IMG/VR virus record: IMGVR_UViG_3300032753_000050
Location: 1 to 46,949 of that record
Length of the DNA stretch: 46,949 nt
Strand: one strand, 5' to 3'
Origin: a virus
Shown here piece by piece: positions 8,404-39,800 of the stretch (within the stretch, counting starts at the first letter, position 1; each line of letters begins with the position of its first letter). Both the position numbers and the translations under genes were made by a program. The notes under the pieces were generated by a model. It was not told where the DNA came from. It saw nothing but the letters and a program-made list of their open reading frames with translations, and made no database searches.

Positions 8404-9454
8404 TGAAGACCTAGCTCGTATAAAAGCTGAGATGTTGATGAAAAGTCAACCGTCGTATGATGATGGTGCTAGCTTGTTAGAGCCCGATCCAAACATGATG
8501 CAAGTCGGTTTGTTTGGCAAAGGGCCAAAGCCTGTTAAGCCCATGGAACCACCAATCGATGTGCAAAGGCGTTCGATACTTGGTTTGCATGCTCAAGAAC
8601 AAGCACCAGTTCCGGCAATTAGGCCTCAAGACATTCCTGTTCCAACATCTAATTTTCCTGCGCCTGTTCCAACATCTAATTTTCCTGCGCCTGTTCCACA
8701 ACAACCGCCCACACCTACACCTGAGCCTACTCAACCAATTAGCCCATTAAATGACTTGGCTAATAAAGCTTTAAACAAGCCGGTGTCTAGACGTGAAGTG
8801 CTTAAAAAGACAGGGCAAGCAGCTTTAAACCAAGTATTGCCAACCCCTAAAATTTCTGATGTTGTGCCTGAAATTACGTCACCATTAACTGACGTTGTAA
8901 AGCCTATGTTTGAAAAGAACGGTACTATTGACTTACATCTTGGTGATTATATGCATCATGCATTTAGCGATGCTTATGAGCAAGAACCGCATTCAGTGGC
9001 TCAAGGAATGTGGTTGTTAGCTCGTGATTATTTAAAAGATCGAATTACACCAGAAAAACTTGATTCAATGGATGAATTGGCAAAGACGCCAAAAGGCAAA
9101 TACCGTGAGGATTCTTCGGATGATATGTCTGATGAAGATGCGCATGAGTTGTATATTCACATGCAACATCAGTTAACGCATAACTTGAAACCACATGAAA
9201 TGGTTGATGTGCTAAGCAACTTGCATCAACATGATTATGATAATCGTGAACTATACGATGACATGGCTAACTTTTACCAATACGATCCAAGATCATATCA
9301 GCCTAAGTTTGCGGGACTAGGCTTAAAGCCTAAAAGAGGCGATAGATCATTTGAGTTTGAAAGCTTAGTGTCTCCTGAAGAGTTTAGTAATTATCTTGAT
9401 GAGTCATGGGAACAAGTGGAAAAAGAAAGCAAAGCTAAAAAGGGATCTAAATAA
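8393..9454 (+). CDS. Hypothetical virion-region protein, 353 aa, Pro-rich N-terminal half
   Basis: Residues about 60-125 are Pro-rich, with two perfect copies of PVPTSNFPA encoded by a 27-bp tandem repeat. A conserved-looking SRREVLKKTGQAALNQVLP segment follows at about 130. The C-terminal 180 residues are acidic and helical with many Asp, His and Tyr. No known domain is recognised. It starts inside the terminase gene and its TAA shares an A with the ATG of the 1515-aa gene (TAATG), so it belongs to the packaging/head operon. A virion or assembly role is likely but unproven. Confidence 0.7.
   Translation: MPYDEDLARIKAEMLMKSQPSYDDGASLLEPDPNMMQVGLFGKGPKPVKPMEPPIDVQRRSILGLHAQEQAPVPAIRPQDIPVPTSNFPAPVPTSNFPAPVPQQPPTPTPEPTQPISPLNDLANKALNKPVSRREVLKKTGQAALNQVLPTPKISDVVPEITSPLTDVVKPMFEKNGTIDLHLGDYMHHAFSDAYEQEPHSVAQGMWLLARDYLKDRITPEKLDSMDELAKTPKGKYREDSSDDMSDEDAHELYIHMQHQLTHNLKPHEMVDVLSNLHQHDYDNRELYDDMANFYQYDPRSYQPKFAGLGLKPKRGDRSFEFESLVSPEEFSNYLDESWEQVEKESKAKKGSK
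8636..8698 (+). repeat. 27-bp tandem duplication in coding sequence
   Basis: Two identical 27-base units (8636-8662 and 8663-8689) are followed by nine bases of a third. They encode the repeated Pro-rich segment of the 353-aa protein. Perfect identity points to a recent duplication. Confidence 0.85.
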
Positions 9455-12400
9455 TGGCTGAAGTATATGATGCATTAGGCAATCTCACCGGCTATGATGA
9501 TAGCAATGCGCCAGAATCAAAGCCTTTAGCAGCTCCCGATCTTAAGAGCCCACTTACAGCGGCTGTTTCCAAGATCAAAGATGTAGCAACTAACTACAAT
9601 CCTTTGATGTTAATGAAGTCGATGCAGGATGTTGCTAAATCGACTGTTGTTAATCCAGCGATCGGCGCACTTGGAATGGCGCAAGGTGTAGTACGTTCAG
9701 TGCCTGAAGTATCTACTGACATAGCTAACTACTTTAAGACAGGCCAAGTTAACACAACAGGGCTGGACACTGCTAAATACTTGGCGGATGAATTTGCCAA
9801 GATGCACATGGCACCATCACAAACGCCACTTGGTCAGCAATTCGACCAATCATTGTCTAATGCTTACGATACAGCAACACAAACATACAAAATGCCGCAT
9901 GCTTGGCCAATGTCACCTGTAGGCGGCGTAATTGACAACATGACCGGACTTGAAGAACGTCGACCACTTGTATCGCCAAGTGACGTAAGAGCCACAATCG
10001 GTAAAGCGCAAATTGTCGGTCAAGAGCTTAAAGACTTACCACAAGACTTTAGGAATGCACAATCAGGCGTTAAAAGACAAAACATACTTGGCGAAGATAC
10101 ATTAGGTGTTAAGGCACAAAAAACTGCGGACACAATTGGCGATATCATGGCTAAGCGCAAGATGCAAGGCTTGCCGCCTGTTCCAGGAATTCCTGGTGCT
10201 TTGCAACCTACGACAAGTTTGTATGCTGTAAGACCTGAAGGTTCACCTGTCGTTTCGTCAACTACAAATAAAGTTCCATTAGAAAAAGGCGGTATTGATA
10301 GCGTTATTCGCGATATCATGCCTTATAGCTCAACACCTACAACTGATGAGCTTAATGATTTGTATCAAAGTAAGATACTTGAAGATACTCCGCATGATAG
10401 TCAATTTATCGATTTTAGAAATCAAAAAATACAGCAAGAGTTTCCTGACTTAAGCCAATACGATGCGAATCGTGCGTTTATCTTAAAGTATCCGCATAAT
10501 GAGCATGATCAAAAACGAGCTGAGCATTTAAATGAATATGCCATTAAGCATGGTTTGCCAACACTTGATCAGTTTAAAAACAATTACGATACTGCTGTAA
10601 AAGCATTGCAAGGTCCATTTAAGAACTACATCATGAAGTATGTGGGCACTGAAAAAGATCCTTTGCTTACTCAAGCAGGCAAAGGCATTACAATGCTGAC
10701 TCGTGATAACATTGTAAACTCTACTGTTCCAAATGGTAGTATAGAAAAAAGCAGACGAGCATTTAATCCTGATATGCCGTTCGGCACAGTTCAGCCTAAG
10801 CTAGATGCTAAACAAACTGAACTTAGGGATTTGCATAAACAGCTAGATGATCTACAAACTCAAAGTACAGCATTGGATCGTCAAGCACAAGAGCAAGGCG
10901 TTACTGCTATTTCGCTTCCAGGTAAAAAAGACTTACTTAAGCAAATCAAAAAGCTTGAGTCACAAATACAATCAAAACATGGCGACATTGACAACTTAAA
11001 GCTTGCTCATGATTATGAGAACATCGCTGATTCTAGTTTGACAATGAAAACAGCACAAAAGATGTGGGATGAAATACCTGCTTATGAAAAGCAGTTTTAC
11101 CCACAGCTTAAAAATATAGTTGACAATACGCCAAATTCACCTGTTTATGACATAAATCCGACTAGCTTATACTCACTTGGATTATCGGCTGTCGGTAAAG
11201 GCTTGTTTGATAATATCTTAACGGGTAAGATGAGTGCAAATGAACTTGCAAGAACCCCAATCGATAAGTTTGTGGTTGATCAAACAAAAGATCGAATTGC
11301 TCAAGAACTGGCTGAAAAGAAAGCATCAACAAAGCGTAAGATAGCCGTCGAAGATCGTCTTAAGAAAGACTTAAATGCAATCCCTGATTCTCAGCGGTTT
11401 GGCAATGTCAAGCTTCTTACTCTTGATCAAAGCACAAACCCTGACGATGTGCTTCATCATTTGTCAATGGAAACTGAGATCAATGATTTTTGTGCGGCTA
11501 AAGGGCTTGATAGCTGCAACTATAAGCATTTGTGGACAGGCGATACACGACGTTACACACCGATTCTTGATGTAGCCACAGGTAAGCGGTTTCCAACAAC
11601 ACAAAATGCACCTATGACATCTTATATTCGGGATGTGATTGATGGGCATTCTAAGCAATTGATCATGAGGGATGCCGAGACTGGTTGGCCTGTTGGAAAC
11701 ATTGAGCTTAAAAATAAATCAGACTCACCAGGAGGTCCTACATATGTTGTTGGTTTTGCTACACAATATCGAAATGCGCAAATTGATCCAAAATATCGAG
11801 CCGCTTTTAGAGATGTTTTAAATGCGCACTCAAATGAGATTCGGTCTTTGGGCGATGATAGTAAGTCTGGTGTTTATGATACAGCAAGAACACCAGTAAG
11901 GTCATTAGCAATTAGAGCTGGCATGAAGACGGAAGACTTCCAAAGAGCAGTTGCAGCTCACCCACTGTCACGCTTTGTGCTAGATTCAGACTTAATTGCG
12001 CTAAAGAATAAAGAAATACCTGCGCCTACAAATGCAAGACAAGCGGATTCTATTAACTATTTACGAGCACAACAGCAAAGCTTAAGTCAGCAAATAGTCG
12101 AGCTTGATAGAGATGATCCTGATTATGCCACACATCATGCTGATTTATATCATCAACTACATGATATAGACTTAAGAATCAATCGTATGATTGATACGGC
12201 AGCGGCGCAAGACTTAACAGGCTTAAGCCCTAATGCTCAAGCTATTCGTCTTAATGGTCCAACTGAGCCTATTCCAGATATTTTGGCGAGTGCATCGAAT
12301 AATCGAGTCAGACAAGCATATATAACTTATTTACGAGATCTAGGTGAGTGGGGTCTTGATAGTGAAGAGCTTGAGAATAATTTGTTAGGCGCAGGTAGTC

Positions 12401-14001
12401 ATGTTGATCCTGATTATATGGAACCCCAAGAAATGGGTGTTCGAACAGATGATGAGCTTAATGAAGTTGCTGATATGCTTGGTCGACATGGCGATGCTTT
12501 TAGCGAGCATATTCATCATCTTAATGCACCACCAGCTCAACCTCCTTCATTTACGCCTGAGCAAGTTGATCAATTAGCTCGTGAGCTAATTAACGTTGAG
12601 CGTACAGATCAAGACCATAATATTCAAGGATTGCAAACAACTAGGTTTCTGTTGGCTAATGGGCAATATGATCACCCCACATTTCGTCAATTGCCTCCTG
12701 GGCTTCGTGAACAAGCTGAAGAGCAAGTACATCGTCGGTTTGTTGAATTATCAAACAACTTAGTCCGCCAAAGAGCAATGAGGCCGATCCCTTCTATTTA
12801 TGACATGACCGACTCACCGCGAGTTAGAAGTGTTTATCGAAGCACGGTTGACGAAATAAGCCCTGATGATGATCTTGAGAGCATGCGTGAGCATCTTCAA
12901 GTTGTGTTACATGTACTAGACGATCCAGATCTAAATAATGATCTTTTAAATGACTTACATGCTAATGATCAGCAATCTGAAAGAGCCGTTGCATTAAGAG
13001 AAATGCTTGAAGCACACGTTGATGCTCTTAGCACGGCAATCAATATGAATGAAGAGCATGCACCTGAAGCTGGAAATGAACCAGCTAATGAAACACCGCG
13101 TGAAGCTTTCTATCGTCAACTTGGCGATCTTGTTAATAGTAGTATTTCTAGGCTTGAAAATCTTGGCACACCCGAAGGCAATTTAGGCGCTGATATTATT
13201 AGAAATGTGCTTATGCAAGCGGCAACACAGCATGATACGTTTGCAAATCCTGTTCGAACTGCCACGCTGGTTAGAGATGCAGCCTCAATTCAAGAATCTC
13301 AGACTGTAAGAGCAGCTCTATATGATCTTGCAAACAACATTATGTTCTTGCATACAGGCAATGAGGGTCAAGCTGTAGAGCCTTATCGTGAGCCTACAGC
13401 ACTACAACAGACTATGCAAAGATTGCAAGCCCAAACTACTCCACATTTACGCGATGCAATGGGTCATAGACAGGCTGATGAAGTTGATCAGACAGCTAAT
13501 AATATTTTTGGTCGCTTTGACCATAATGAAGTTGCTGACATCATACATTCACTTCGTAATGGGGATGAAGTGCCTGGTAATGAGCTTTATCAAGATTTTT
13601 CGATGCGTCAACGGGAGTTGCTAGCTCGTGAATTACAACGCAGACTTCCTGTGCCTGAAGATGAATTTAACTTTGAGCCTGATAACATGCATGGCGCTAA
13701 TCAGCAATTGCCACAAGCTACACAAGAACATCGAGAAATCCGTCAAGTGATCAATGACACACTTGAGCGCTGGGATGATATGTCACAAATGTACAATCAG
13801 ATGTTAGATGATGGCATTACGGCAGGAACCCCTATTCCAGAAATAATTGAATCATTGCAAGACCATATTGCAGGACTAATCACTGATATCCAAGTAATTC
13901 CTGGGAATATGGGATTTGACCTAGAAGAACAAGAAAGAGCTATTTCAGATTTAGAAGACTTACATAGTCATTTGAATAGAATAAGCGGTATGGATCATTG
14001 A
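9454..14001 (+). CDS. Very large protein of unknown function, 1515 aa
   Basis: This is the longest gene in the window and lies between terminase and portal. The first 150 residues resemble a membrane-interaction or ejection-protein start (SPLTAAVSKIKDVATNYNPL and MLMKSMQDVAKSTVVNPAIG). A coiled coil occupies about 450-530. A central region (about 670-850) has FCAAKGLDSCNYKHLW, GWPVGNIELKN and GVYDTARTPVRSLAIRAGM, a more globular and perhaps enzymatic domain. The last 550 residues are acidic, helical and repetitive in style. By size and position it could be an internal virion protein injected with the DNA, or a large polyvalent protein. No catalytic motif was recognised. Confidence 0.7.
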   Translation: MAEVYDALGNLTGYDDSNAPESKPLAAPDLKSPLTAAVSKIKDVATNYNPLMLMKSMQDVAKSTVVNPAIGALGMAQGVVRSVPEVSTDIANYFKTGQVNTTGLDTAKYLADEFAKMHMAPSQTPLGQQFDQSLSNAYDTATQTYKMPHAWPMSPVGGVIDNMTGLEERRPLVSPSDVRATIGKAQIVGQELKDLPQDFRNAQSGVKRQNILGEDTLGVKAQKTADTIGDIMAKRKMQGLPPVPGIPGALQPTTSLYAVRPEGSPVVSSTTNKVPLEKGGIDSVIRDIMPYSSTPTTDELNDLYQSKILEDTPHDSQFIDFRNQKIQQEFPDLSQYDANRAFILKYPHNEHDQKRAEHLNEYAIKHGLPTLDQFKNNYDTAVKALQGPFKNYIMKYVGTEKDPLLTQAGKGITMLTRDNIVNSTVPNGSIEKSRRAFNPDMPFGTVQPKLDAKQTELRDLHKQLDDLQTQSTALDRQAQEQGVTAISLPGKKDLLKQIKKLESQIQSKHGDIDNLKLAHDYENIADSSLTMKTAQKMWDEIPAYEKQFYPQLKNIVDNTPNSPVYDINPTSLYSLGLSAVGKGLFDNILTGKMSANELARTPIDKFVVDQTKDRIAQELAEKKASTKRKIAVEDRLKKDLNAIPDSQRFGNVKLLTLDQSTNPDDVLHHLSMETEINDFCAAKGLDSCNYKHLWTGDTRRYTPILDVATGKRFPTTQNAPMTSYIRDVIDGHSKQLIMRDAETGWPVGNIELKNKSDSPGGPTYVVGFATQYRNAQIDPKYRAAFRDVLNAHSNEIRSLGDDSKSGVYDTARTPVRSLAIRAGMKTEDFQRAVAAHPLSRFVLDSDLIALKNKEIPAPTNARQADSINYLRAQQQSLSQQIVELDRDDPDYATHHADLYHQLHDIDLRINRMIDTAAAQDLTGLSPNAQAIRLNGPTEPIPDILASASNNRVRQAYITYLRDLGEWGLDSEELENNLLGAGSHVDPDYMEPQEMGVRTDDELNEVADMLGRHGDAFSEHIHHLNAPPAQPPSFTPEQVDQLARELINVERTDQDHNIQGLQTTRFLLANGQYDHPTFRQLPPGLREQAEEQVHRRFVELSNNLVRQRAMRPIPSIYDMTDSPRVRSVYRSTVDEISPDDDLESMREHLQVVLHVLDDPDLNNDLLNDLHANDQQSERAVALREMLEAHVDALSTAINMNEEHAPEAGNEPANETPREAFYRQLGDLVNSSISRLENLGTPEGNLGADIIRNVLMQAATQHDTFANPVRTATLVRDAASIQESQTVRAALYDLANNIMFLHTGNEGQAVEPYREPTALQQTMQRLQAQTTPHLRDAMGHRQADEVDQTANNIFGRFDHNEVADIIHSLRNGDEVPGNELYQDFSMRQRELLARELQRRLPVPEDEFNFEPDNMHGANQQLPQATQEHREIRQVINDTLERWDDMSQMYNQMLDDGITAGTPIPEIIESLQDHIAGLITDIQVIPGNMGFDLEEQERAISDLEDLHSHLNRISGMDH

Positions 14002-14041: not shown

Positions 14042-16570
14042 ATGGCTACAGAAATGCCTATCCCTCAAGACTTCAATCGATTTATCGGCCCTGAGCAAGA
14101 GCCGTCGATTGATGAAGATGAATCCATTATGGAGATCATTGAGGAGATTCCTGATGTTGAGGAATTGCCTGACGGATCTGCCATTGTGCGAATGGATGAC
14201 CTTAAAGGCCCTGAAGAGTCGCCTGACTTCTATGAAAATCTTGCCGAATCTCTTGACATCATAGAGCTTAACTCTATTGCTCTAAAGTATCTGGACTTGA
14301 TTGAGAAAGATAAAGAAGCTCGTGAAGATCGTGATAAGCAATATGAAGACGGTATTCGTCGTACTGGATTAGGGCATGATGCCCCAGGTGGTGCACAGTT
14401 CATGGGTGCATCTAAAGTTGTGCACCCTGTTATGGCTGAGGCTTGTGTGGACTTTGCGGCAAGAGCTATTAAAGAACTCTTTCCACCAGATGGTCCTGTC
14501 AAGACTAAGATTATCGGCGAAGTTGATGATGCCAAGACAGCTAGAGCTGAGCGTAAACGCGACTACATGAACTGGCAGTTGACCGAGCAAATTGAAGAGT
14601 ATCGTGATGAGCAAGAACAGATGCTCACACAACTGCCTCTTGGTGGCAGCCAATACTTAAAGCTGTGGTGGGATGACCAAAAGAAACGACCATGCGCTGA
14701 GTTTGTGCCTATTGATAACATTTATTTGCCGTTTGCTGCAGGTAATTTCTATACAGCATCACGCGTTACTGAAGTCCAAGACATCACACAAGAGATGTAT
14801 GAGATTCGTGTCAATACAGGTTTGTATCGTGACTTGGATGTGTATAGGTTACCACAAGAGCCTGATGAGTCTAAAGCACAAAAAGCTAACAACAAAATTG
14901 AGGGTAAGACACCACAAAGCATTAATGTTGACGGTGTAAGACGTGTATTTCACATTCGTACTTGGTTAGAGTTAGAGGATGATAGCTACTCAAAGAGTGA
15001 AAGAGCCCCTTACATACTAATGATTGATGAAAATGAGCGTTCGGTTGTTGGTTTATATCGTAACTGGGAGGACGGCGATGAAACAATGTCTAACTTGGAT
15101 TGGCTGGTTGAGTTCAAGTTTATCCCTTGGAGGGGAGCATATGCGATTGGTCTCCCTCATCTCATTGGCGGATTGTCCGCAGCCCTTACCGGAGCATTAC
15201 GTGCACTACTAGACTCAGCGCACATTGTGACTGCCCCTACAATGCTAAAGCTAAAAGGCGGCAAGATATCTGGGCAAACTACAGTCATTGAGCCTACACA
15301 AGTAGCCGAAATTGAAGGGGCCCCTGGTGTTGATGACATTCGTAAGATTGCCATGCAAGTGCCTTTCCCACAACCTTCGCCTGTTTTGTTCCAACTTTTA
15401 GGCTGGTTAACTGATGCAGCCAAGGGTGTAGTGACTACAAGTGAGGAAAAGATTGCTGATGCTAGCAATAACATGCCTGTTGGTACAGCTCAAGCACTGA
15501 TTGAGCAAGGAGCCGCAGTTTTTAGTTCAATTCACTCAAGATTGCATGACAGCCAAAAGAGAATCTTAAAAATCTTAGCTAGATTGAACAGGTGGTACCT
15601 AGATGAGCAAAGAAAAGGTGAAATTGTTAGAGATCTCGAAATTTCGGTCGATGATTTTGAGTCCAATACGGACATTGTACCGGTTTCTGATCCTCATATC
15701 TTTGCGGAAAGCCAGAGATATGCGCAGATTCAAACGCTTGCGGCAAGAGCGCAAGCAAACCCCGATCTCTACAACAGACTTGAGGTAGAGAAACGGATTC
15801 TGAAGCAAATTAAGCTCCCAGATGTCAATGCAGTGCTTCCTGACCCTGAAGAAGTGAAAGATATGAACCCTGCATTGGAAAATGTGTCCATGACACTAGG
15901 AAAACCAGCCGGCGCATATCCGCATCAGGATCATATGGCACATTTGCAGACACATTTGGCCTATGCAATGAACCCAGTATTTGGATCTAACCCAATTATT
16001 GCCCCGAAATTCATCCCTGCAGTATTAGAGCACATAAAGCAACATATTACCTTATGGTATTTAAATCAGATTGACACGTATGCATCTGTGGCCCTTCGTG
16101 AACCTTTTAACGCATTAAAAGTCCAACCGATGATGAAAGAAGCTCAGCAGTTGTTGGCTGTAAGTGCGCAGCATGTCAATAAGGATACAGAAGAGCAATT
16201 TGCTCAACTGCAGCCCCAGATTGCACAACTCGTGAAGATGATGCAACAATTGCAGCAATCACAACAACCGACTGACCCATCTGTTCAAGCTCTGGTCCAA
16301 ACTTCTATGGCTGAAACACAACGGAAAGCGGCTCGTGATAAAGCTGAGATTCAATTGAAGGCTCAGGACATGCAAACCATTGCACAAGAGAAGCAATCTA
16401 GATTACAGTCCGACGTAGTGATGAACACAGAGAATAACTTGACTGCCGAGAGAATTAAGTCCGCAGAGCTAACCAGAGATGCGGCACAATTGCAACATGA
16501 GCAACTGCAAACTGTCCTCGATGCTCAAAACCAACTCCAAACAAACTTAGGGGGAAATCCAAATGTCTGA
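14042..16570 (+). CDS. Portal protein (head-tail connector), 842 aa
   Basis: The protein forms the DNA gate at one capsid vertex. It has the long-portal pattern of P22-like podoviruses: an acidic N-terminus, then GGAQFMGASKVVHPVMAEA and IKELFPPDGPVKTKI. After these come the segment LTQLPLGGSQYLKLWWDD and the domain with FVPIDNIYLPFAAGNFYTAS. A Gln-rich helical C-terminus (residues about 680-842) is expected to form a barrel extending into the head. At 842 residues it is longer than P22 gp1 (725). AAAGG precedes the ATG. Position after terminase and before scaffold and capsid supports the call. Confidence 0.85.
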   Translation: MATEMPIPQDFNRFIGPEQEPSIDEDESIMEIIEEIPDVEELPDGSAIVRMDDLKGPEESPDFYENLAESLDIIELNSIALKYLDLIEKDKEAREDRDKQYEDGIRRTGLGHDAPGGAQFMGASKVVHPVMAEACVDFAARAIKELFPPDGPVKTKIIGEVDDAKTARAERKRDYMNWQLTEQIEEYRDEQEQMLTQLPLGGSQYLKLWWDDQKKRPCAEFVPIDNIYLPFAAGNFYTASRVTEVQDITQEMYEIRVNTGLYRDLDVYRLPQEPDESKAQKANNKIEGKTPQSINVDGVRRVFHIRTWLELEDDSYSKSERAPYILMIDENERSVVGLYRNWEDGDETMSNLDWLVEFKFIPWRGAYAIGLPHLIGGLSAALTGALRALLDSAHIVTAPTMLKLKGGKISGQTTVIEPTQVAEIEGAPGVDDIRKIAMQVPFPQPSPVLFQLLGWLTDAAKGVVTTSEEKIADASNNMPVGTAQALIEQGAAVFSSIHSRLHDSQKRILKILARLNRWYLDEQRKGEIVRDLEISVDDFESNTDIVPVSDPHIFAESQRYAQIQTLAARAQANPDLYNRLEVEKRILKQIKLPDVNAVLPDPEEVKDMNPALENVSMTLGKPAGAYPHQDHMAHLQTHLAYAMNPVFGSNPIIAPKFIPAVLEHIKQHITLWYLNQIDTYASVALREPFNALKVQPMMKEAQQLLAVSAQHVNKDTEEQFAQLQPQIAQLVKMMQQLQQSQQPTDPSVQALVQTSMAETQRKAARDKAEIQLKAQDMQTIAQEKQSRLQSDVVMNTENNLTAERIKSAELTRDAAQLQHEQLQTVLDAQNQLQTNLGGNPNV

Positions 16571-16853
16571 AGCAATTAACATGCATAAACGGATCGCTAT
16601 GGGTGGTGAATCCGAAGCTAACCACTTGAAAAAAGGCGGTATTGCTAAGAAGCACCACTATGCCAAAGGTGGTTCAGTAAATAATGGGGCAATCCCAGAA
16701 TCTAAAGTTGCAAACCTACCTGCTAAAGCCAATACACCGATTATTGGAAAGCCTACAGGTAAGATTGCCACTATGAAAAAAGGTGGTCATGCTAAAGGTG
16801 GTATGACAGTCATTATTGCACCTATGAAGAAGTCATCTGGTCGGGGCCGTTAA
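16563..16853 (+). CDS. Small basic Lys/Gly-rich protein, 96 aa, KKHHYAKGG family
   Basis: The protein carries HLKKGGIAKKHHYAKGGSV and KKGGHAKGGM and ends KKSSGRGR, so it is strongly basic. The KKHHYAKGG segment is shared with the His-rich 345-aa protein at 21685-22722. It overlaps the portal gene by eight bases and shares TAATG with the next gene. Basic Gly/Lys-rich proteins of this kind occur in many phages. A DNA-contacting virion role is an inference. Confidence 0.75.
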   Translation: MSEAINMHKRIAMGGESEANHLKKGGIAKKHHYAKGGSVNNGAIPESKVANLPAKANTPIIGKPTGKIATMKKGGHAKGGMTVIIAPMKKSSGRGR

Positions 16854-17038
16854 TGCGGATTTCTGATCTCATCGGACGGATAAAGCAAAAGCAAGTCGAG
16901 ATTGCTGACTCCCTTGTACAAGGGTATGCCATCAATTTCGAAACTTACCAGCGCCTAGTCGGTCAACACCAAGGTTTGGATGAAGCCTTGAATTTAATCA
17001 ACCAACTCATAGAAGAGGAAAACCAAGATGTCGAATGA
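16853..17038 (+). CDS. Small helical protein, 61 aa
   Basis: The sequence MRISDLIGRIKQKQVEIADS continues with a helical Gln/Glu-rich stretch and ends LINQLIEEENQDVE. Short proteins of this type (a helical hairpin with a YQRLVGxxxGLxEAL centre) are common beside phage portal genes; their role is unknown. The start lies on the stop of the preceding gene (TAATG) and the end overlaps the GroES-like gene by 11 bases. Confidence 0.75.
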   Translation: MRISDLIGRIKQKQVEIADSLVQGYAINFETYQRLVGQHQGLDEALNLINQLIEEENQDVE

Positions 17039-17450
17039 TATCGAACAGACGCTTGAAGAAGCGTTTCCAAATGTAGATCCGTTAATGGCACCTTATGGTG
17101 GCAGAGTGCTTGTACAGCTTAGATCTGTAAAGGATAAAGTAACTGCTTCAGGCATTGTGCTTCCCGAAGAAACCAAAGAAACCGAAAAGTGGAACACCAT
17201 GATCGGTAAAGTCATTGCTATTGGGCCTTTGGCTTTTAGAAAGCGTGACACAATGGAGCCATGGCCAGAAGGTGCATGGGCTCAGGTAGGCGAATACGTT
17301 CGTGTGCCTAAGTGGGGTGGTGATAGATGGGAAATTGATTTTACAGATGCAAAAGGCCTTAATGGTAAGTGCTTGTTTACTTTCTTTAATGATCATGAAC
17401 TCATTGGTAAAGTCACTGGTGACCCTCGTGATATTAAAGCGTTTATCTAA
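17028..17450 (+). CDS. GroES-like co-chaperonin, 140 aa
   Basis: GroES family features are in order: PYGGRVLVQL (22-31) as the first strand, a mobile-loop region with the hydrophobic tripeptide in SGIVLPEE (41-48) that docks on GroEL, and GKVIAIGP (60-67). VGEYVRVPKWGG follows as the roof or second barrel segment. It should act as a seven-subunit lid for the host GroEL, as T4 gp31 does for the T4 capsid protein. Its place just before the scaffold and capsid genes suggests help in folding the major capsid protein. It is longer than bacterial GroES (about 95 residues) because of an acidic N-terminus and a C-terminal tail. Confidence 0.85.
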   Translation: MSNDIEQTLEEAFPNVDPLMAPYGGRVLVQLRSVKDKVTASGIVLPEETKETEKWNTMIGKVIAIGPLAFRKRDTMEPWPEGAWAQVGEYVRVPKWGGDRWEIDFTDAKGLNGKCLFTFFNDHELIGKVTGDPRDIKAFI

Positions 17451-17468
17451 GTTTTGAAAGGAAACTTT

Positions 17469-18452
17469 ATGAATAGCACTGAAAAGTTAGAACTGCAAGT
17501 GGAAGAGAATCAAGATGGTAGTGCATCGGTTCAAGTAACCACTGCAGATGAATCACTGCAAACAAAGAATGATGAGCTTATTAACATTATAGAAGAAGCT
17601 GCTTCTAGTAATGATAATGACGATCAAAATGATAGTGGTAATGACCCTGATAGGGAAGCCATTAGACAAGCTAGGCGTGAAGAGCGTCAGCTTAAGAAAC
17701 AACTTCATCGCGAAAAAGCAAAAGAATCAAATCATTTAATTTCAGCACTTAAAAAGCAAAATCAACAGCTTGCTGAGCGTGTTGCAATTATGGAGAAAAA
17801 GACTTCTGGCGCTGAGCTTGCAAGAGTTGACAAAGCAATTGAGGACGCAGCTGTTCAGGTTGAGTATGCCAAGCTTCAAATGAAAGAGGCGGTTACTCAC
17901 TCTAATGGTGAGGCTCTTACAAGAGCTCAGCAGGACTGGTATGACGCACAGCGAAAGCTTGAGTCATTAAAGAACATGCGTGAAACTTCTGCTCGTCAAA
18001 CGACAGGACAGACCCCTAATATTCAATCAGACCCTGATGTTAAACGGATGGCCTCTGACTGGGTAGAAAGAAACCCATGGTATGACCCAGAGGGTAAGGA
18101 TCTGGACTCCGAAATTGCCCAAAAGATTGACAAACGCCTTACTGAGGAAGGGTTTGACCCACGGTCTGAGGACTATTGGGAAGAATTAGACGATAGAGTT
18201 GCAAAATATTTACCACATCGCGCTGATCGTGGTTATAATCCGCCAAACGTCAAAAGTCAGAGGCCTCGATCCATGGTGACAAGTTCTGGTAGAGATTCAA
18301 TCGCTAGTACTAAATCTAACGAGTTTAGACTTAGTCCACAGCGTGTTGCTGCCATGAAAGAAGCAGGTTTATGGGATAACCCATCTGCTCGTCAAAAAGC
18401 AATTGCGAATTATGCCAAATGGGATCGTGAAAATAAACAAAGGAGCCAATGA
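17469..18452 (+). CDS. Probable scaffold protein, 327 aa
   Basis: The start is placed at 17469 because AAAGGA lies seven bases before it; an ATG five codons upstream has no such site. The protein is very acidic at the N-terminus (residues 30-65, Asp/Asn-rich). It then has a long basic-acidic coiled coil (about 70-180, with LKKQNQQLAERVAIMEKK) and a C-terminal part with RNPWYDPEGKDLDSEIAQ and a basic end. Acidic coiled-coil proteins immediately upstream of the capsid gene are typical phage scaffolds. No sequence family was recognised with certainty. Confidence 0.6.
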   Translation: MNSTEKLELQVEENQDGSASVQVTTADESLQTKNDELINIIEEAASSNDNDDQNDSGNDPDREAIRQARREERQLKKQLHREKAKESNHLISALKKQNQQLAERVAIMEKKTSGAELARVDKAIEDAAVQVEYAKLQMKEAVTHSNGEALTRAQQDWYDAQRKLESLKNMRETSARQTTGQTPNIQSDPDVKRMASDWVERNPWYDPEGKDLDSEIAQKIDKRLTEEGFDPRSEDYWEELDDRVAKYLPHRADRGYNPPNVKSQRPRSMVTSSGRDSIASTKSNEFRLSPQRVAAMKEAGLWDNPSARQKAIANYAKWDRENKQRSQ

Positions 18453-18988
18453 TGGATGACAGATTAAAGAAAAATGTTAGAGCAGGCCGTGAGGATAGAG
18501 CCACGGAAGACAAAATGCGTCAACCTGCAGAAGATAGTTTAGTTTCATCTCAGGAGCGTCGTAGAACGTTCCGCTCGGAATGGCAACCTGAAGCACTTCC
18601 GAATCCACCCGAAATACCGGGTTTTCACTTATGTTGGCTATCTACAACCAACCAATACGATCCTATCCATAAGCGCATGAGACTTGGATATACACCTGTA
18701 AAAGCTTCTGAAATAGAAGGCTTTGATGCATACAGAGTGAAGTCCGGGGAACTAGAAGGCTTTGTAGCTTGTAACGAAATGGTCTTGTATAAACTTCCCG
18801 AAGATGTTTATCAAGAAATGATGTTGGAAATGCATCACTACGCTCCTCAAGACGAGCAAGAAAAGATTCGTGTTCAACAAGAAATGCTACAAGAACAAGC
18901 TCGCGATGCGAAAGGACGCCCATTGGTTACGATTGAAGGTAACGGCATGAATTTTGATCAAACCATTAAGACGCCTGTCTTCGTATAG
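18449..18988 (+). CDS. Conserved head-region protein, 179 aa
   Basis: The gene begins at a tandem ATG ATG overlapping the scaffold stop. Positively charged helices at the N-terminus precede PGFHLCWLSTTNQYDPIHKR, a recognisable phage protein pattern. Next come GYTPVKASEIEGFDAYRV and a helical C-terminus. Homologues next to major capsid genes are known in many phages but their role is not defined. It may bind the capsid or scaffold. Confidence 0.7.
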   Translation: MMDDRLKKNVRAGREDRATEDKMRQPAEDSLVSSQERRRTFRSEWQPEALPNPPEIPGFHLCWLSTTNQYDPIHKRMRLGYTPVKASEIEGFDAYRVKSGELEGFVACNEMVLYKLPEDVYQEMMLEMHHYAPQDEQEKIRVQQEMLQEQARDAKGRPLVTIEGNGMNFDQTIKTPVFV

Positions 18989-19002
18989 GCAAGGAGCACA
19001 CT

Positions 19003-19623
19003 ATGTCAGCAGTATCAGCTCCGTTTGGTTTGCGCCCCGCATATTTTCCCACAGGGTTGGAACGTGCTCAGGCGCTTGCAAACGGTATCGCTTCGGGCTA
19101 TAGCTCGAACATTCTCAAAGGTCAGCCTATTATCTATGGTCAAAGTGGCGCAAGCGCCAACGGCACTATTGTGGTAGCAACTGCACCTTCCGCCGGCGCA
19201 TCTGCCGCCTCTTATCCCGTTACTGGTTCATTCCAAGGGGTTGAGTGGACGGATACTACAGGTCGTCGCCGTGTTTCAAACTACTGGCCCGCAAGTACAA
19301 CTTACGTCACCGGTTCATGCATTGCTTATTTCTATAACGACCTCAATATCGTTTATGAAATCCAAGCTGATGGAAGTATGCCACAGACATCTATTGGTAA
19401 TGAGTACAATTTTACTGTTGCCAATATTGCTGCTGGTTCTACAACCACTGGTTTGTCACAAGCAACTTTGAATACAACTGCCGTTGGTAATGGTGTTCAA
19501 GGACAAATGCGCGTTGTTGATCTGGCTGCTTATCCAGACAATAACTGGGGGGATGCTTACACTATCGTTCGTGTCCAATTAGCAATCACGCAATTCTACG
19601 GTGCTTACACCGCAGTTGCTTAA
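19003..19623 (+). CDS. Head accessory / decoration-like protein, 206 aa
   Basis: The N-terminus MSAVSAPFGLRPAYFPTGL is typical of small beta-rich phage head proteins encoded just before the capsid gene. The rest is rich in Gly, Ala, Thr and Ser with aromatic positions, as expected of a beta-sandwich. No charge-rich tail is present. It could be a decoration protein on the capsid surface. The gene starts 14 bases after the preceding stop, with AAGGAG upstream, and is followed at 16 bases by the capsid gene. Confidence 0.6.
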   Translation: MSAVSAPFGLRPAYFPTGLERAQALANGIASGYSSNILKGQPIIYGQSGASANGTIVVATAPSAGASAASYPVTGSFQGVEWTDTTGRRRVSNYWPASTTYVTGSCIAYFYNDLNIVYEIQADGSMPQTSIGNEYNFTVANIAAGSTTTGLSQATLNTTAVGNGVQGQMRVVDLAAYPDNNWGDAYTIVRVQLAITQFYGAYTAVA

Positions 19624-19639
19624 TAAGGAGGACTGAACT

Positions 19640-20554
19640 ATGGCAGCCCCAATGCGAAGTACGGACTTTAGATCGATTGTTGAACCGATCCTTAATGAGT
19701 CCTTTGACGGTGTATATGATCAACGTGCCGATGAATGGTCCACGGTTTTCCGTGAACAAGCCGGTATTCCTCGTAACTACCATGAAGAACCCGTCCTGTA
19801 CGGTTTCGGTGCAGCTCCTCAGCTCCCTGATGGCTCACCCGTTACCTATCAACAAGGCGGCGTGTTGTTCTTGCAACGTTACGTCTATCAAGTCTTCGGT
19901 CTTGCTTTTGCATTGACCAAAGTATTGGTGGAAGACGGTGACCACGTTCGTATTGGTCAAATTTATGCTAAGCACTTGGCACAATCATTGGTGGAAACTA
20001 AAGAATTGTTGTGTGCTAACATCCTAAACAGAGCTTTTAATAGCTCTTATGTGGGTGGTGACGGCGTATCTTTGATTAACACAGCACACCCCATTGCAGT
20101 TGGTTCATTTAGTAACCAGTTGGCAACAGCCGCTGCACTTAGCCAGACATCACTTGAGCAAATGTTGATTCAGATTCGTCAAGCCGTTGACAACAACGGT
20201 AAGAAAATCCGTCTCCAACCTTTGAAGCTTGTTGTTGCTCCTGGTAACGTGTTCCAAGCTGAAGTGTTGCTGAAGTCAGTGTTGCGCACTGGTACAGCCA
20301 ATAACGACATCAACCCAATTAAATCAATTGGTTTGTTGCCCGAAGGCGCTACCGTGATCAGCCGTTTGACTTCATCTACTAACTGGTGGGTACAAACCGA
20401 CGCACCAGAAGGTATGAAGCTCATGATGCGTCGTGCATTGGAGAAGACCATGGAAGGTGATTTTGAAACTGACTCAATGCGCTATAAAGCCACTGAGCGT
20501 TACATCCCTAACTGGACTGACCCACGCGCTATGTACGGTACACCTGGAGCCTAA
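19640..20554 (+). CDS. Major capsid protein, HK97-like, 304 aa
   Basis: Several features match the Mu gpT-like class of HK97-fold capsid proteins. RSIVEPILNESFDGVYD and ADEWSTVFREQAG stand at the start. GGVLFLQRYVYQVFGLAFAL follows, then DGDHVRIGQIYAKHLAQSLV in the spine-helix region, and VGGDGVSLINTAHPIAVGSF. A last part ends DFETDSMRYKATERYIPNWT and DPRAMYG. AAGGAGG precedes the ATG, the strongest ribosome site in the window, as expected for the most abundant virion protein. A terminator follows. Confidence 0.9.
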   Translation: MAAPMRSTDFRSIVEPILNESFDGVYDQRADEWSTVFREQAGIPRNYHEEPVLYGFGAAPQLPDGSPVTYQQGGVLFLQRYVYQVFGLAFALTKVLVEDGDHVRIGQIYAKHLAQSLVETKELLCANILNRAFNSSYVGGDGVSLINTAHPIAVGSFSNQLATAAALSQTSLEQMLIQIRQAVDNNGKKIRLQPLKLVVAPGNVFQAEVLLKSVLRTGTANNDINPIKSIGLLPEGATVISRLTSSTNWWVQTDAPEGMKLMMRRALEKTMEGDFETDSMRYKATERYIPNWTDPRAMYGTPGA

Positions 20555-20568
20555 TTTCCGGAGGCTTT

Positions 20569-20594
20569 ACGGGGGAGCCTTAATCCCCCGTTTT
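20569..20594 (+). terminator. Terminator after the capsid gene
   Basis: ACGGGGG (20569-20575) pairs with CCCCCGT (20585-20591) around a nine-base loop and is followed by TTTT. It probably reduces read-through from the capsid gene. A weaker alternative pairing (AGGCT 20562-20566 with AGCCT 20576-20580) would compete with the stem. Confidence 0.85.
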
Positions 20595-20625
20595 AACTTG
20601 TCATACTTTTCATGGAGCAGACAAA

Positions 20626-21672
20626 ATGCCACAATTTTCAGATGACCTCTTCCTAGGGTCTGCACAATCATATGTTGGTACAAATTCCAACAGTGCACTA
20701 GGAAATCCTTCCCCTATGTCATTAGGTTTCGGTCCTATGGGTCGTGTTTACCTTTATGACACCACACCTGCTGCTGCTACAACTGCTGCTGTGTTAGCTG
20801 CTAAAACACCTACACAAGCAACTACTTATAGCGGTACAGCACTTGCCTATGGTACAGGTGGCACAACTCAAGTATTGCGCACTGACGGAACTACCGTTAC
20901 GCAGCTTGACTACCCTCGTGCTTTGTCAGTCACTACTGGAACTGGTACACCAACTAATTCACAAGTGACAATCACTGGCTATGACTATTATGGTCAGCCT
21001 ATGACTGAAATTATTCAGACAGGTACAGTTCAGTCCACAACCACTAAAGGCCGTAAAGCTTTCTTCCAAGTGTACTCAGTTGCTTTCTCAGCAGCTACAG
21101 CAGTTGCTGTTTCAGTTGACACAACAACTACACTTGGTTTGCCTTGCCGTATTAGTGATGAAGCCTACGTTGTTGATACTGGATTCACTGGTTCAGTTGA
21201 CGTTGATGTCGGTACATTGGCTTATGGCTACTACAGCAATACGACAAGCTACAACACTCAGTCGATCACAAACTTTACGGCCGCTACGCCCGGTGTCATC
21301 ACAGTGGGCTATGCTCCTCCCAGTGGTACTTTGGTCCAATTGACAGGCTCTTTGGGTACTTTGACAGGTGTTTCTTTGAACACAACTTACTGGTGGACAT
21401 ATGTTTCATCAACAACAGGTAAGCTGTCAACAACTCAAGCCAACTATCTTGCAGGAACTTATGTTGCCACAAGTGGTACAACCATCACTTCAGGCATGAA
21501 CTTAGTTCCCCAGTTTGTATCTAGCTCAGTAACGCCTGATGTTCGTGGAACTTACATTCCTGCAGGTACATTGAATGGATACAATAAGCTTGTTATAACC
21601 TTAGGTTTGACAGCAATTCAGGTTGGTCCTAACGCCACAGCAACAGGTTTGCTCGGCATCACCCAAGCTTAA
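20626..21672 (+). CDS. Thr/Gly-rich virion protein, 348 aa
   Basis: The protein is nearly free of charged residues and rich in Thr, Ser, Gly, Ala and Val, which indicates stacked beta domains. The phrase VTITGYDYYGQPMTEIIQTG resembles the GxDxxGxxxTETI motif of phage head decoration proteins. A related pattern (LISGLDANYNQISETLAM) is in the gene at 22764-23546. The N-terminus MPQFSDDLFLGSAQ is a common start in these. GGAG precedes the ATG by nine bases. It is probably a capsid decoration or head fibre component. Confidence 0.6.
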   Translation: MPQFSDDLFLGSAQSYVGTNSNSALGNPSPMSLGFGPMGRVYLYDTTPAAATTAAVLAAKTPTQATTYSGTALAYGTGGTTQVLRTDGTTVTQLDYPRALSVTTGTGTPTNSQVTITGYDYYGQPMTEIIQTGTVQSTTTKGRKAFFQVYSVAFSAATAVAVSVDTTTTLGLPCRISDEAYVVDTGFTGSVDVDVGTLAYGYYSNTTSYNTQSITNFTAATPGVITVGYAPPSGTLVQLTGSLGTLTGVSLNTTYWWTYVSSTTGKLSTTQANYLAGTYVATSGTTITSGMNLVPQFVSSSVTPDVRGTYIPAGTLNGYNKLVITLGLTAIQVGPNATATGLLGITQA

Positions 21673-21684
21673 AGGAGCTTAAAA

Positions 21685-22722
21685 ATGGCAAAATCCTCAT
21701 TTGGCCGCGAGCCTAAAGAAATGACCACTGAATCTTCAGCTGATGAAGTGGGTGATGGTATGAAACGTGGCGGACATGCTAAGCATAAAAAACATATGGC
21801 AATGGGTGGTGCACCTATGATGCCTGCTTCAATGACAAGACGTGCACCAATAATGGCAGCAAGACCTACAATGGCAGCAAGACCGCCTGCAATGCTTATG
21901 CGTAAACATGGCGGTAAAGCTCATCATGCCGAAGGTGGCATGGAGCATAAAGCCGAAATGAAAGAAATGCATAAGATTGAGAAAGAACTTAAGCACCATG
22001 AAAAGATGAAAGATTCTGAACATGGTGGTAAAGCTCATGCTAAGCACGGTGGTCATATGAAACATATGATGAAAGGTGGCATGCAGCGTGGAGTTCCCGG
22101 TGGTTTGCTAGGTGGTATTGAGGATAAAGGCCCTACAAAACCAGCCGGTACAGGCGGTGTACGTGCCCCTGGCTATAAGCATGGCGGTCATACTAAGAAA
22201 CATCATGCCGAAGGCGGTTTAGCTGCTAAAGGTGATGCATTCATGACTAAAGGCACATTAAAGCCTAAAATTGATGTGCAAGACAAAATGCATGAAGCTA
22301 AGCAAGTCAAGTCATTGCACACAAAGACAAGTGGTGTAGAAGGCAAAGGCTATAAGCACGGTGGTGTAACCAAGAAGCATCATTATGCCAAAGGCGGTAC
22401 TGTGTCACAAAGTGTTGCAGATAAATACCTGAATGACATGCATGATGGTGAAAAGATGCCTACCAAAAAGGGCCATACAGGGGAAGTTAAACAAGTCCCA
22501 GGTGGTTACAAGCATGGTGGTAAAGTTCATCATGGGCATGCTGCACATCACACTACTCATGGTCATCATGATGAAGGCCATACACATATGCATAAGCATG
22601 CATCAAAACATGCACATGGTGGTCATGAAAAAATGGAAGGCCATCCAATGAAGCATGGCGGACATGTGATGACATCTAAGATGTCAACGCACAAAAAAGC
22701 CGGTGGTAAGTGCAACTATTAA
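21685..22722 (+). CDS. His/Lys/Gly-rich repetitive protein, 345 aa, KHGG family
   Basis: Some 46 of 345 residues are histidine, with many Lys, Gly and Met. The protein is built of irregular copies of a KHGGxxKKHHAxGG unit. Clear examples are KHGGHTKKHHAEGGL, KHGGVTKKHHYAKGGTV and KHGGKVHHGHAAHH. The C-terminal third is the most His-dense. Acidic residues are few, so it is strongly basic and might bind nucleic acid or metal ions. It lies among head genes and is closed by a terminator. Related KHHYAKGG sequence is in the 96-aa protein after the portal. The biological role is unknown. Confidence 0.8.
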   Translation: MAKSSFGREPKEMTTESSADEVGDGMKRGGHAKHKKHMAMGGAPMMPASMTRRAPIMAARPTMAARPPAMLMRKHGGKAHHAEGGMEHKAEMKEMHKIEKELKHHEKMKDSEHGGKAHAKHGGHMKHMMKGGMQRGVPGGLLGGIEDKGPTKPAGTGGVRAPGYKHGGHTKKHHAEGGLAAKGDAFMTKGTLKPKIDVQDKMHEAKQVKSLHTKTSGVEGKGYKHGGVTKKHHYAKGGTVSQSVADKYLNDMHDGEKMPTKKGHTGEVKQVPGGYKHGGKVHHGHAAHHTTHGHHDEGHTHMHKHASKHAHGGHEKMEGHPMKHGGHVMTSKMSTHKKAGGKCNY

Positions 22723-23548: not shown

Positions 23549-23851
23549 ATGCCACTTATTAAAAGTAAATCCAAAGAAGCTTTTAGTAAAAATGTGTCCG
23601 CTGAAGTTAAAGCCGGCAAACCAGTTAAGCAAGCCGTTGCAATTGCATATGCTACCAAGCGGTCTGTGGGCAAGAAAGCTGGCGGACTATGGGATAACAT
23701 CCATGCTAAGCAAGAACGAATCAAGCATGGGTCAGGCGAGCATATGCGTAAACCTGGCAGCAAGGGTGCCCCTACAGACTATGACTTAAAGCATTCACAA
23801 AGTAAGAAACACGGCGGTAAAGCAAAGAAACACGACATTAAGGGATGGTAA
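23549..23851 (+). CDS. Small basic phage protein, 100 aa, C-terminal GGKAKKHDIKGW
   Basis: The start MPLIKSKSKEAFSKNVSAEV, followed by KAGKPVKQAVAIAYATKR, belongs to a widespread family of short phage proteins. The second half is basic and ends SKKHGGKAKKHDIKGW. The last 12 residues (GGKAKKxDIKGW) are repeated at the end of the next gene, which is otherwise different. It starts two bases after the preceding stop and directly abuts the next gene. Function is not established; position among head genes suggests a virion or assembly role. Confidence 0.8.
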   Translation: MPLIKSKSKEAFSKNVSAEVKAGKPVKQAVAIAYATKRSVGKKAGGLWDNIHAKQERIKHGSGEHMRKPGSKGAPTDYDLKHSQSKKHGGKAKKHDIKGW

Positions 23852-24148
23852 ATGACAATAAAGACGAATGTCAAACTATCTATTAAACGTGGTGAGAAAC
23901 TGCCTACAAGTCATGGTGCAGGTCTTACACAAAAAGGTCGTGACAAAGTCAACAGAGAAACTGGAAGTCATCTTAAAGCCCCACAAGAAAAAGGCTCACG
24001 TCATGATAGCTTTTGTGCTAGAATGAGCGGCATGGCAGGACCTATGAAAGATGAAAAAGGTAGACCCACTCGTAAAGCAGCATCTTTGAAAAGATGGCAT
24101 TGTGCAACAGGTGGAAAAGCCAAGAAATATGACATCAAAGGATGGTAA
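23852..24148 (+). CDS. DUF6321-like small basic protein, 98 aa, C-terminal GGKAKKYDIKGW
   Basis: The core LTQKGRDKVNRETGSHLKAP, then SFCARMSGMAGPMKDEKGRP and TRKAASLKRWHC, matches a very common small phage protein family (DUF6321-type). The C-terminus CATGGKAKKYDIKGW shares its last 12 residues with the preceding gene. The nucleotide sequence of the tag differs at silent positions between the two genes. Cysteines in SFCAR and WHC could bind a metal. The gene begins right after the previous stop. Confidence 0.8.
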   Translation: MTIKTNVKLSIKRGEKLPTSHGAGLTQKGRDKVNRETGSHLKAPQEKGSRHDSFCARMSGMAGPMKDEKGRPTRKAASLKRWHCATGGKAKKYDIKGW

Positions 24149-32761: not shown

Positions 32762-32799
32762 TCCATTTATAATCATCTCATTAGCAATCAGGGATAATC

Positions 32800-33432: not shown

Positions 33433-33434
33433 TC

Positions 33435-36646: not shown

Positions 36647-36879
36647 TAGTCTATGACCCTAGAAACATGACTTGGAATTATTGGTGTGCTCTAATGGCTG
36701 AATTATTTGCATCAAATCAGCTAGGGACTGTGCCTGAAGAGAGATGGCGTGACTGGGCTTCTGGTATGCAAGGTATTGGATACTTTGTAGAATCAGGCGT
36801 GCCTGACCATAAACAGTTTGCCACTTGGCAAGACTGGGCACAAAACTTAGTTGGCATTATGAGGATTACACCACAATGA
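36643..36879 (+). CDS. Conserved small phage protein, 78 aa
   Basis: The pattern YDPRNMTWNYWCALMAELFA, then VPEERWRDWASGMQGIGYFV and WQDWAQNLVGIM, is a widespread short phage family found next to hub genes. It is rich in Trp. The start overlaps the hub stop (ATGA) and its own stop overlaps the next start in the same way. Function is unknown; translational coupling suggests it belongs to the tail. Confidence 0.8.
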   Translation: MIVYDPRNMTWNYWCALMAELFASNQLGTVPEERWRDWASGMQGIGYFVESGVPDHKQFATWQDWAQNLVGIMRITPQ

Positions 36880-39800
36880 CCACTACAGCAAATGCTTTGC
36901 CAAGTACAGATGCATTAAATGCAATTACTGCGGCTTACCAGTCTGGGTTGTCTTCAGGCGACATGAGTGCAGTTAATCAGCTGATTCAACAAAATCAATT
37001 TACATCTTCTCAACTTTCTCAGACAAATCCAACATTTGATCAGTCTGTTTTAGCAGGGCAAGGTGTTCAGCTGTATGCACCTCCGTCTAATGTTACTGCA
37101 GCAACTACTGGCTCATTGCCCACATCAAATGCTAACACTGGAGCATCGACCACTAACACCGGTGCTGCTGCAAATACAGCTTCTACAAGTACTGGGGCAT
37201 TGCCTAATACAACTGCTTCAACACCTTCGATCACTGATTTACTGAGCCAATACAACTCACAGACTCAACAAGGCATTAAGAATGCTGGTCTTGATACTGT
37301 AATGCAGCAAGTTAATTCAGGCGTGAATGCCAATGACTTGCTTAATTCTGGTTTGCAGATCTATCAAGCCGGGACATATAAAGATGCATCTGGTAATACG
37401 GTTACACCAGCATCCAATACATATGTTGTCAGTAGCCCTGATGGTTCAGGTGGTGCACTAAACTATTTCTTTCAAGTTGATCCAACAACAGGCAAAACAG
37501 TTGCTATTAACAACCCCGGACAAAATTTAACATACACACCAGGATCATCTGGTGGGTTTTTAAACAATGTTGTATCCGATTTTGGTTCTGCCATTAACTC
37601 ATTGGGGCCTATTGGCAAGATTGCAACTGTAGTAGCTGTTAATGCACTACTTCCTGGTGCAGGTGATCTAGGCGCGGCTCTTACTGGTGCCGATGCTGCA
37701 TCATCAACTGCATTAACTGTTGGCGGTGCGGCTCTTGGTGCTGCCAACGGCGGTACTCTTGCGGCTCTTAATGGTCAAAACATTGAGCAAGGTATTCTTA
37801 CAGGCGCTTTATCAGGCGGTGTTGGTGCAAATGCTTCAAGCTTAGCTACAAATGTGATCGGTAAAGACAATCTAACATCGATTGCAAATTCTTTAGGCGG
37901 TACATTTACACCTACTCAAGTGTCACAGATTGTAGGTAGCGCTTTTACAAAATCACTTGTATCAGCTGCAGCATCAGGCGATACATCAAATGTCCTTAGC
38001 ACTTTTGCATCGAACTTAGTGACATCAGGGCTAGGCACTACAGCATCAAATCAGATATACGACGCATTTGATGGTCAGCTCAACAGTAAAACTTTAGATT
38101 CACTTGCAAAAGCAGTAGGCAATGCTACAAGTGCTACAACAGCTGCAGCTGTGTCATCAGGTGGTAATCCAAATGCGATTGCAACTGCATTACTAACATC
38201 AGCTTCTACATCACTTGGAAATTATCTAGGTAGTTCAACCGCAAGTGCTGTTAAATCTGCAATACCATCAAACACAGGTGCAGGGGCAACTAAAGTTTCT
38301 GACACAGGCGCATCAACATCTGGTTCAGTTACGAATATAACAACAGACCCAGGGTCATATTCAGATGCTGCACCAGGGACAATGACCACAATGTCAAATG
38401 GTGAGCCTGGAATTGTATTGGACAGCGGTAAGATTGCATCTTTGGTAGACTATAGAAATGCAGTGGCTTCTGGTCAACCATTTTCAATTGACGGAATGAT
38501 GCAAACAGGGTCTAATGCAACCAGTTTGCTTAAAAATGCAGTTTCATCACCTTCAACAACACCTGTTGATGTGAGTGGGACAGGTGCAGTTGTGAATGCT
38601 GAAAATGCATCAAAACTAGGTTTTGATACTTCACAGCTGCCTGATGGTTATCAGTTAGTTGATGCAGCAACTAGCGATGCTTATTATGCAGCGTATGGGC
38701 ATAACCCACCAGTCACGCCATTACCTGATGGCACATATGTGACGATGTTGCCAACTTCAGAAATTCAAGATTTAAATCCATCTGTAACAACGACCACTCA
38801 AACTGGTGGGGTAAGCAACTCAACAAACCCAGTAACGACAACAGCAGATGACTCAACAAACCCAGTAACGACAACAGATGACTTAACAAAAGCAAATCAG
38901 TATGATGCAAATGGAAATTTAATACCTGCTAATACTACAGCATCTGGAAATGTCCCAAACACATCTCTTCAGACAGTAAATGTGACTGGAAAACAAGGGT
39001 CGTCTGATGTAACTTTTCAGCCCGTTACTGTTACTGGAAAGAATGACAATACAGATAATACAACTACGCTTAATCCTGTCACTGTTGTAGGAAAGAACGA
39101 CAATACAGATAATACAACTACGCTTAATCCTGTCACTGTTGTAGGAAAGAATGACAATACAGACACTAATGTGTCTCCTGTAGAACTTAACCCTGTTACA
39201 GTTGTTTCGCCAAGATCTATTGACCCAGAACCTCCTGTAGTTCAGCCACCCCCACCCTCACCTCCTCCAGTTAAACAGCCAACACTACCTGTTGTACCTG
39301 GAACAACAATTACATCGCCTAGTACTAAAACAGCAACAACTACTACAACGCCATCTGTTTCTCAAACAAGCTCATCTACTACGACAGGCGCATTACCTGC
39401 AAATTTAATCGGAACTATGCTGGCATCAACAGCCCCAGCTGAAAGAGCAAAACTTATGCAAGATCTAAAACAAATCTACCCTGAACTAGCACATCTCGAC
39501 CCTAAGATCTTAAGTCTTTTAAGCGGTGAAGTATCAGGCAAGCAAGCTGAAAGCTTAATGCAAAGTGGTGTGAACATGCTTCAAGCCCCTGCAGCTTCTG
39601 GCAGTGTTCCATTATCGCCTATTTCGGGGTCATCCGGTCAGACAGGTTTGACACCATCTACCATGACAAGCCCTTTGATGCAAGGTAACTACAATGCTCT
39701 GTCATCAGCCGGATTACAGCTAATGGCAGGACAGCAAGGTGCTTTACCTTCATTTAAGAAGGGTGGTACAGTTGAGCATATACCGCAATTTGTTACTGGT

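Follow-up and report, generated by a model that had tools for sequence, protein, structure and literature searches.

A short KxGG phrase in five gene slots of a freshwater phage group, a candidate address tag for the phage head

Introduction

Why do several proteins encoded around the portal and capsid genes of one phage carry the same short phrase of lysine and glycine? The question is raised by IMG/VR virus record IMGVR_UViG_3300032753_000050, analysed here over its full 46,949 bases (the window), which encodes a terminase (PF03237/PF17289), a portal protein (phrog_1216), GroES (PF00166), and a gpT-type capsid protein (PF25209/PF10124). A protein of 96 aa follows the portal gene, the end of which its start overlaps by 8 bases (P1; 16563..16853, + strand), and a Lys/Gly/His-rich protein of 345 aa follows the genes for the major capsid protein and a 348-aa protein (P2; 21685..22722, +). 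In the original prediction, made from the DNA alone, both were placed in one family with three further proteins carrying related phrases, and a common partner was suggested, such as packaged DNA, a metal, or a capsid site. The coordinates and lengths of P1 and P2 are correct. Comparison with related phages points to a probable address tag, by which proteins would be loaded into the phage head or held there.

A phrase shared by P1 and P2

The longest string common to P1 and P2 is KKHHYAKGG (9 aa; 16647..16673 in P1 and 22372..22398 in P2, both +), and none of 1500 composition-preserving shuffles gave a string above seven. The pair has a Smith-Waterman score of 90, whereas 600 shuffles reached 72 at most. 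By both measures the similarity survives correction for composition, on which the original prediction had been made to depend. The KHGG and KKGG units described there are likewise in excess, with [KH]GG counts of 4 against 0.5 expected in P1 and of 10 against 2.7 in P2 (maximum of 9 in 5000 shuffles). A second phrase is also common to the two proteins, HKRIAMGG in P1 (16584..16607, +) and its cognate HKKHMAMGG in P2 (21784..21810, +); this pair had been missed, and so had the tag that relatives carry on their large pre-portal proteins, described below.

The family profiles of P1 and P2 align collinearly with hhalign (57 columns, E 6e-5, probability 64.5%), an alignment that is often weaker in other genomes than in the window. 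Homology between the two is likely from these sequence comparisons, but not proven. The KKHHYAKGG strings were said to use different codons, and three of the nine codons do differ, all synonymously; the other six are identical, in line with the 4.6 expected from codon usage (P = 0.26). With codon identity at expectation, a recent copying of DNA from one gene to the other is not indicated and was rejected, and protein-level conservation suffices as an explanation.

Restriction of the phrase to five gene slots

A position matrix was built from P2 sequences alone and applied at a threshold of at least 11 bits to the window and 12 long relatives, with the expectation taken from shuffling each protein. 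The phrase is best written [YFMLH]-[KA]-x-G-G, with position -3 relative to GG mostly Y, M, L or F, position -2 K or A, and the residue after GG usually basic or V/A/S/M/T. This motif search, a check proposed with the original prediction, found enrichment in five slots only: the large pre-portal proteins (10/14 against 1.25 expected), P1 (7/9 against 1.5), P2, the small proteins at 23549-24148 (13/14 against 1.6), and homologues of a 1058-aa protein (7/11 against 0.9). The remaining 888 open reading frames gave 11 matches against 9.6 expected, which is background, and four of the 11 were slot members or neighbours missed by the rules (a P1, a 1058-type protein, the DUF6321 protein of the window, and a nearby small protein). 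The predicted common partner of the phrase-bearing proteins is well supported, at the level of sequence, by this slot restriction, by the composition control, and by the presence of the phrase on unrelated proteins.

A C-terminal tag on large pre-portal proteins

The phrase lies in the last 60 residues of 38 of 45 large pre-portal proteins, against 4.3 expected from other stretches of the same proteins (34 against 2.4 at a stricter threshold), and mostly within the last 15-40 residues. The 200 aa preceding the tail fall into 25 unrelated BLAST clusters, of which 23 are tagged. Typical ends are GHKDGGHIKFAKNIDEMRLALMKGK, GHKKGGYITRKPSIEQMRFALMKGK and GFAKGGTVRIAKTIPAMRAELRRM. When IMG/VR was searched with an IDEMRLAL-like DNA probe, 42 matches were found, seven at a protein end and 35 internal. 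All seven protein-end matches have GG no more than 25 aa upstream and lie exactly 12 residues from the stop, compared with GG beside 0/35 internal matches; the seven stem from few related contigs and are not seven independent events.

In several relatives the large pre-portal proteins carry ART-PolyVal, LPD23, PcfJ, GP88, GH108, and ParB C-terminal domains. Being large, multidomain (PF18760, PF18838, PF14284, PF17338, PF05838, ParB C-terminal) and encoded in the late gene block, they qualify as polyvalent proteins of phages, notably through ART-PolyVal, LPD23, and PcfJ; Iyer et al. (2017; PMC5512222) predict that such proteins are packaged and injected. The words 'lysine', 'glycine' and 'KGG' do not occur in the text of that paper, and a C-terminal tag common to polyvalent proteins is new to the present comparison.

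It is conceivable that the phrase is neutral, a recombination-spread or generic linker or tail of disordered phage proteins that have no common partner. The large pre-portal proteins are indeed mosaics, and the proteins at 23549-24148 consist of fused modules with such phrases at the joins. This is nevertheless decidedly unlikely, given the background level in the 888 other open reading frames of the same genomes, a codon identity between copies that speaks against recent DNA copying, and a placement relative to the C-terminus that is kept.

In Pelagibacter phage HTVC023P, unrelated proteins (21655-22392, 32480-32863, and 33143-33508) have a recurring R-G-x-G-A-A followed by R-G-x-x-F-x-G or a variant, possibly another tail tag, peculiar to that lineage.

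The small proteins and the 1058-aa protein

Related KxGG phrases had been attributed to the two small proteins at 23549-24148, and the matrix bears this out, although what these proteins mainly have in common is a near-identical final 12 residues, GGKAKK[HY]DIKGW. The first (23549..23851, +) is basic, with phrog_2423 and phrog_16028 modules and the C-terminus GGKAKKHDIKGW; the second (23852..24148, +), also basic, ends in GGKAKKYDIKGW and is the only one of the pair to match DUF6321 (PF19846, E 1.5e-20; 74.1 bits against a gathering score of 28.5). Their counterparts form one fused gene with the same module order in many relatives, and the window shows a split of this gene with the tail on both products.

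In P-SCSP1u, a T7-like cyanophage far outside this group, a DUF6321 gene and the gene of a protein with the NIHAKR module adjoin each other at 11536-11954; that module is also present in the 23549 protein of the window. As in the window, the site is flanked by the major capsid gene and the tail tubular genes. The two DUF6321 members differ in the extra C-terminal GGKAKKYDIKGW of the window copy, common to its neighbour. No proteomics passage was found in the cryo-electron microscopy paper on P-SCSP1u.

The 1058-aa protein (36876..40052, +) is tape-measure- or ejection-like (phrog_6090, tail length tape measure). Its phrase, originally read as a C-terminal FKKGGTVEH, lies approximately 100 aa before the end, as SFKKGGTV (39750..39773, +) directly before GHYVKGxGDGQSDDIPAMLADGEYVF. 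On window evidence alone this link was rejected, as 5-letter matches are at chance level (P = 0.18 and 0.08). It is made credible by the relatives alone, because homologues retain the phrase at the homologous place, 99-113 aa from the C-terminus.

Composition and predicted structure of P1 and P2

Both genes keep their place in relatives, P1 approximately 3.1 kb before the capsid gene and P2 approximately 1.1-1.4 kb after it, and P2 is found downstream of the major capsid gene in nearly all relatives with a contig reaching far enough. P1 has a long KGG form and a form of approximately 42-56 aa that retains only the H-K-[RK]-[LMI]-A core, without the long KGG arms; in the HKRIAMGG core, H8, K9, and A12 are invariant in group A1. 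P2 homologues range from 161 to 515 aa and carry, in both clades, up to three TG[EG][VI]...[YF]KxGG units, which in the window are TGGVRAPGYKHGG (22150..22188, +), KTSGVEGKGYKHGG (22324..22365, +), and TGEVKQVPGGYKHGG (22477..22521, +).

Across 66 distinct P2 homologues, lysine (14.9 +/- 1.6%, coefficient of variation 0.11), glycine (16.4 +/- 1.6%, 0.10), and net charge (approximately +10 per 100 aa, 0.17) are stable, whereas histidine ranges from 0.6% to 15.7% (0.98). This bears on whether P2 is a metal-binding protein with HxH arrays, in which the phrase would be incidental. The approximately 46 histidines reported for the 345 aa are exactly 46, and the His-rich tail, HHTTHGHHDEGHTHMHKH... 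(22528..22662, +), is conserved in the window's clade (consensus HHTTHGHxDHGHxHMHKH..KHxHGHxK..GHPMKHGG). The His arrays are, however, absent from the other clade, and in about half of the homologues histidine is only 0.6-3% while the phrases and gene position are retained. Metal binding therefore cannot be the general function and would be at most clade-specific, which makes it an improbable account of P2.

P1 and P2 gave AlphaFold models of low confidence and almost without structure, P1 with a mean predicted local distance difference test score of 57 and a single short helix (residues 5-12), and P2 with a mean of 44 and a helix at 85-106. These models, limited by shallow alignments, are consistent with mostly disordered proteins. 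Profile searches of the PDB with both families gave nothing credible. The KGG model of Pfam (PF10685, stress-induced bacterial acidophilic repeat) describes a KGG motif in small hydrophilic proteins; P1 and P2 differ in having no match to it or to any other Pfam model, even at E = 1. An exchange of beta-strand tails was considered from TIAIA.P.KK in P1 and SVTVTP.KK in P2, which never occur in both, and was set aside as too phylogeny-dependent to count.

The stable lysine, glycine, and charge, together with the nearly structureless models, would also suit disordered, protamine-like proteins that neutralise or organise the packaged DNA, with the phrase as a unit that contacts DNA and the large tagged proteins carried along on it. 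DNA is a possible partner of P2 on its charge and predicted disorder. As an account of the phrase, however, this is unlikely, since the preference at -3 for hydrophobic or aromatic residues, and at -2 for K/A, goes beyond charge alone, and the large proteins have few copies, typically one at the tail, when bulk charge needs no fixed place near the C-terminus.

Comparison with known systems

The adenovirus-type protease cleaves at [MIL]xGG, and the many xGG in the disordered head-block proteins might accordingly be sites for a head-maturation protease. This is very improbable. Searches of the window's head-block proteins with Pfam, PHROGs and NCBIfam turned up no protease family, the M23 domain of a 596-aa protein belongs to a cell-wall peptidase family, and cleavage would not require clustering at 15-40 aa from the C-terminus of the cargo. 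Cleavage at GG by a head protease was rejected on the absence of such a protease.

The internal proteins of T-even phages are highly diverse, with only a capsid-targeting sequence in common (PMC3012670), which in T4 is N-terminal, approximately 10-20 aa long, and removed by the gp21 protease (PMC7411985). The likeness to T4 (IPI-III, Alt) lies in a short terminal peptide common to diverse proteins that are injected in T4 and predicted to be injected here; Alt is an ADP-ribosyltransferase, and the large pre-portal proteins of relatives include ART-PolyVal. A peptide on unrelated bodies is also seen here (38/45 large pre-portal proteins, with 25 unrelated pre-tag regions), and a location inside the virion is predicted. 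The present tag differs in being mostly C-terminal, in containing KxGG, and in having a putative role in packaging; N-terminal placement with removal by a prohead protease was not found. By analogy, the best reading is that the KGG tag works like the T4 capsid-targeting sequence without being a member of that class. In the searchable papers, nothing related was found on a KGG motif in phages, and nothing on DUF6321.

Relatives and neighbouring genes

IMG/VR contains at least 595 relatives of the window capsid. Relatives of its portal include the metagenome-assembled phage MW202545 (58%), Caulobacter phages RW, KcrB, RLK, and GB2A (49%), Roseobacter phages CRP-901 and CRP-902, and Pelagibacter phages HTVC023P and HTVC027P. 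With tblastn of P1 and P2 against 50,697 phage records, MW202545 itself was the only credible match, so that no isolate with proteomics can be reached by that route. GTDB contigs with related capsids are mostly from betaproteobacterial metagenome-assembled genomes of lake origin, a weak hint of a betaproteobacterial host for these relatives that may also be a binning effect.

Between P1 and GroES, a protein of approximately 61 aa (16853-17038) with F-x-x-Y-Q-R-L-V-G-x-x-Q-G-L is kept in nearly all relatives and has no match in Pfam. The 352-aa protein at 24149-25207 has an F5/8 type C-like (discoidin) stretch at E 2.9e-5, under the curated cut-off.

Proposed role of the phrase

Whether [YFMLH]-[KA]-x-G-G is a short linear tag that brings several putative virion proteins to one partner in the assembling head is, on sequence evidence, a proposition that we hold at about even weight. 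A site in the head or capsid is the best-supported class of partner, because the slots flank the portal and capsid genes and one of them holds predicted injected proteins. Of the partner types first suggested, the capsid site thus fares best, metal does not stand as a general partner, and DNA may still serve for P2.

The tag would be a phrase in mostly disordered segments, used across a large group of freshwater phages. Its cargo, with one or few copies, would be the large, presumably injected polyvalent proteins, the small basic proteins, and the tape-measure- or ejection-like 1058-aa protein. P1, produced directly after the portal, and P2, produced later than the capsid proteins, would be dedicated multi-copy tag proteins, P2 acting as an internal filler or hub of the prohead that either sits at the sites used by the cargo or binds tagged proteins. 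Candidate partners are the scaffold (17454-18452), the inner capsid surface, and the portal. We infer the virion location, the prohead loading, and the identity of the partner. A more specific form of this proposal, in which a portable C-terminal KxGG tag loads interchangeable injected effectors, recruited by a disordered P2 hub and a portal-linked P1, and so forms a previously undescribed capsid-targeting system with no relation to the T4 one, is put forward more tentatively.

Several observations weigh against a head-loading tag. The large pre-portal proteins of the window itself (353 and 1515 aa) have no C-terminal tag, and neither do those of some of its closest relatives; the 1515-aa protein (9454..14001, +), in a slot that is C-terminally tagged in relatives, also has no recognised polyvalent domain. 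The tag is therefore not obligatory, and if it works as proposed, the window either confines it to P1, P2, the small proteins, and the 1058-aa protein, or has another way of loading the 1515-aa protein. Caulobacter phage RW, with the common portal and capsid, has a short-form P1 and no P2. In Roseobacter phage CRP-902 neither P1 nor P2 can be recognised, but KKGG does occur in one protein, 24 aa before its end. No data from mass spectrometry of virions or from binding assays were found for the KGG proteins, nor any proteomics of KGG-bearing phages. The DUF6321 homologue of S-SZBM1 (gp084, taken as S-SZBM1_192 by the numbering offset from the major capsid protein) is absent from the virion protein table obtained by liquid chromatography-mass spectrometry, although Lys/Arg-rich proteins digest poorly for trypsin-based detection. 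Lastly, scoring the matrix against shuffles corrects for composition and not for a generic style of disordered basic tails, which the comparison with 888 open reading frames addresses in part.

Only in very few systems is it understood in detail how phages select the cargo of their heads. If true, a tag readable from sequence would list the injected proteins across a large uncultured freshwater phage group, that of the at least 595 capsid relatives in IMG/VR, and could be put to use for protein loading into heads. Lys/Gly proteins without a name in Pfam and NCBIfam gain a testable role as well.

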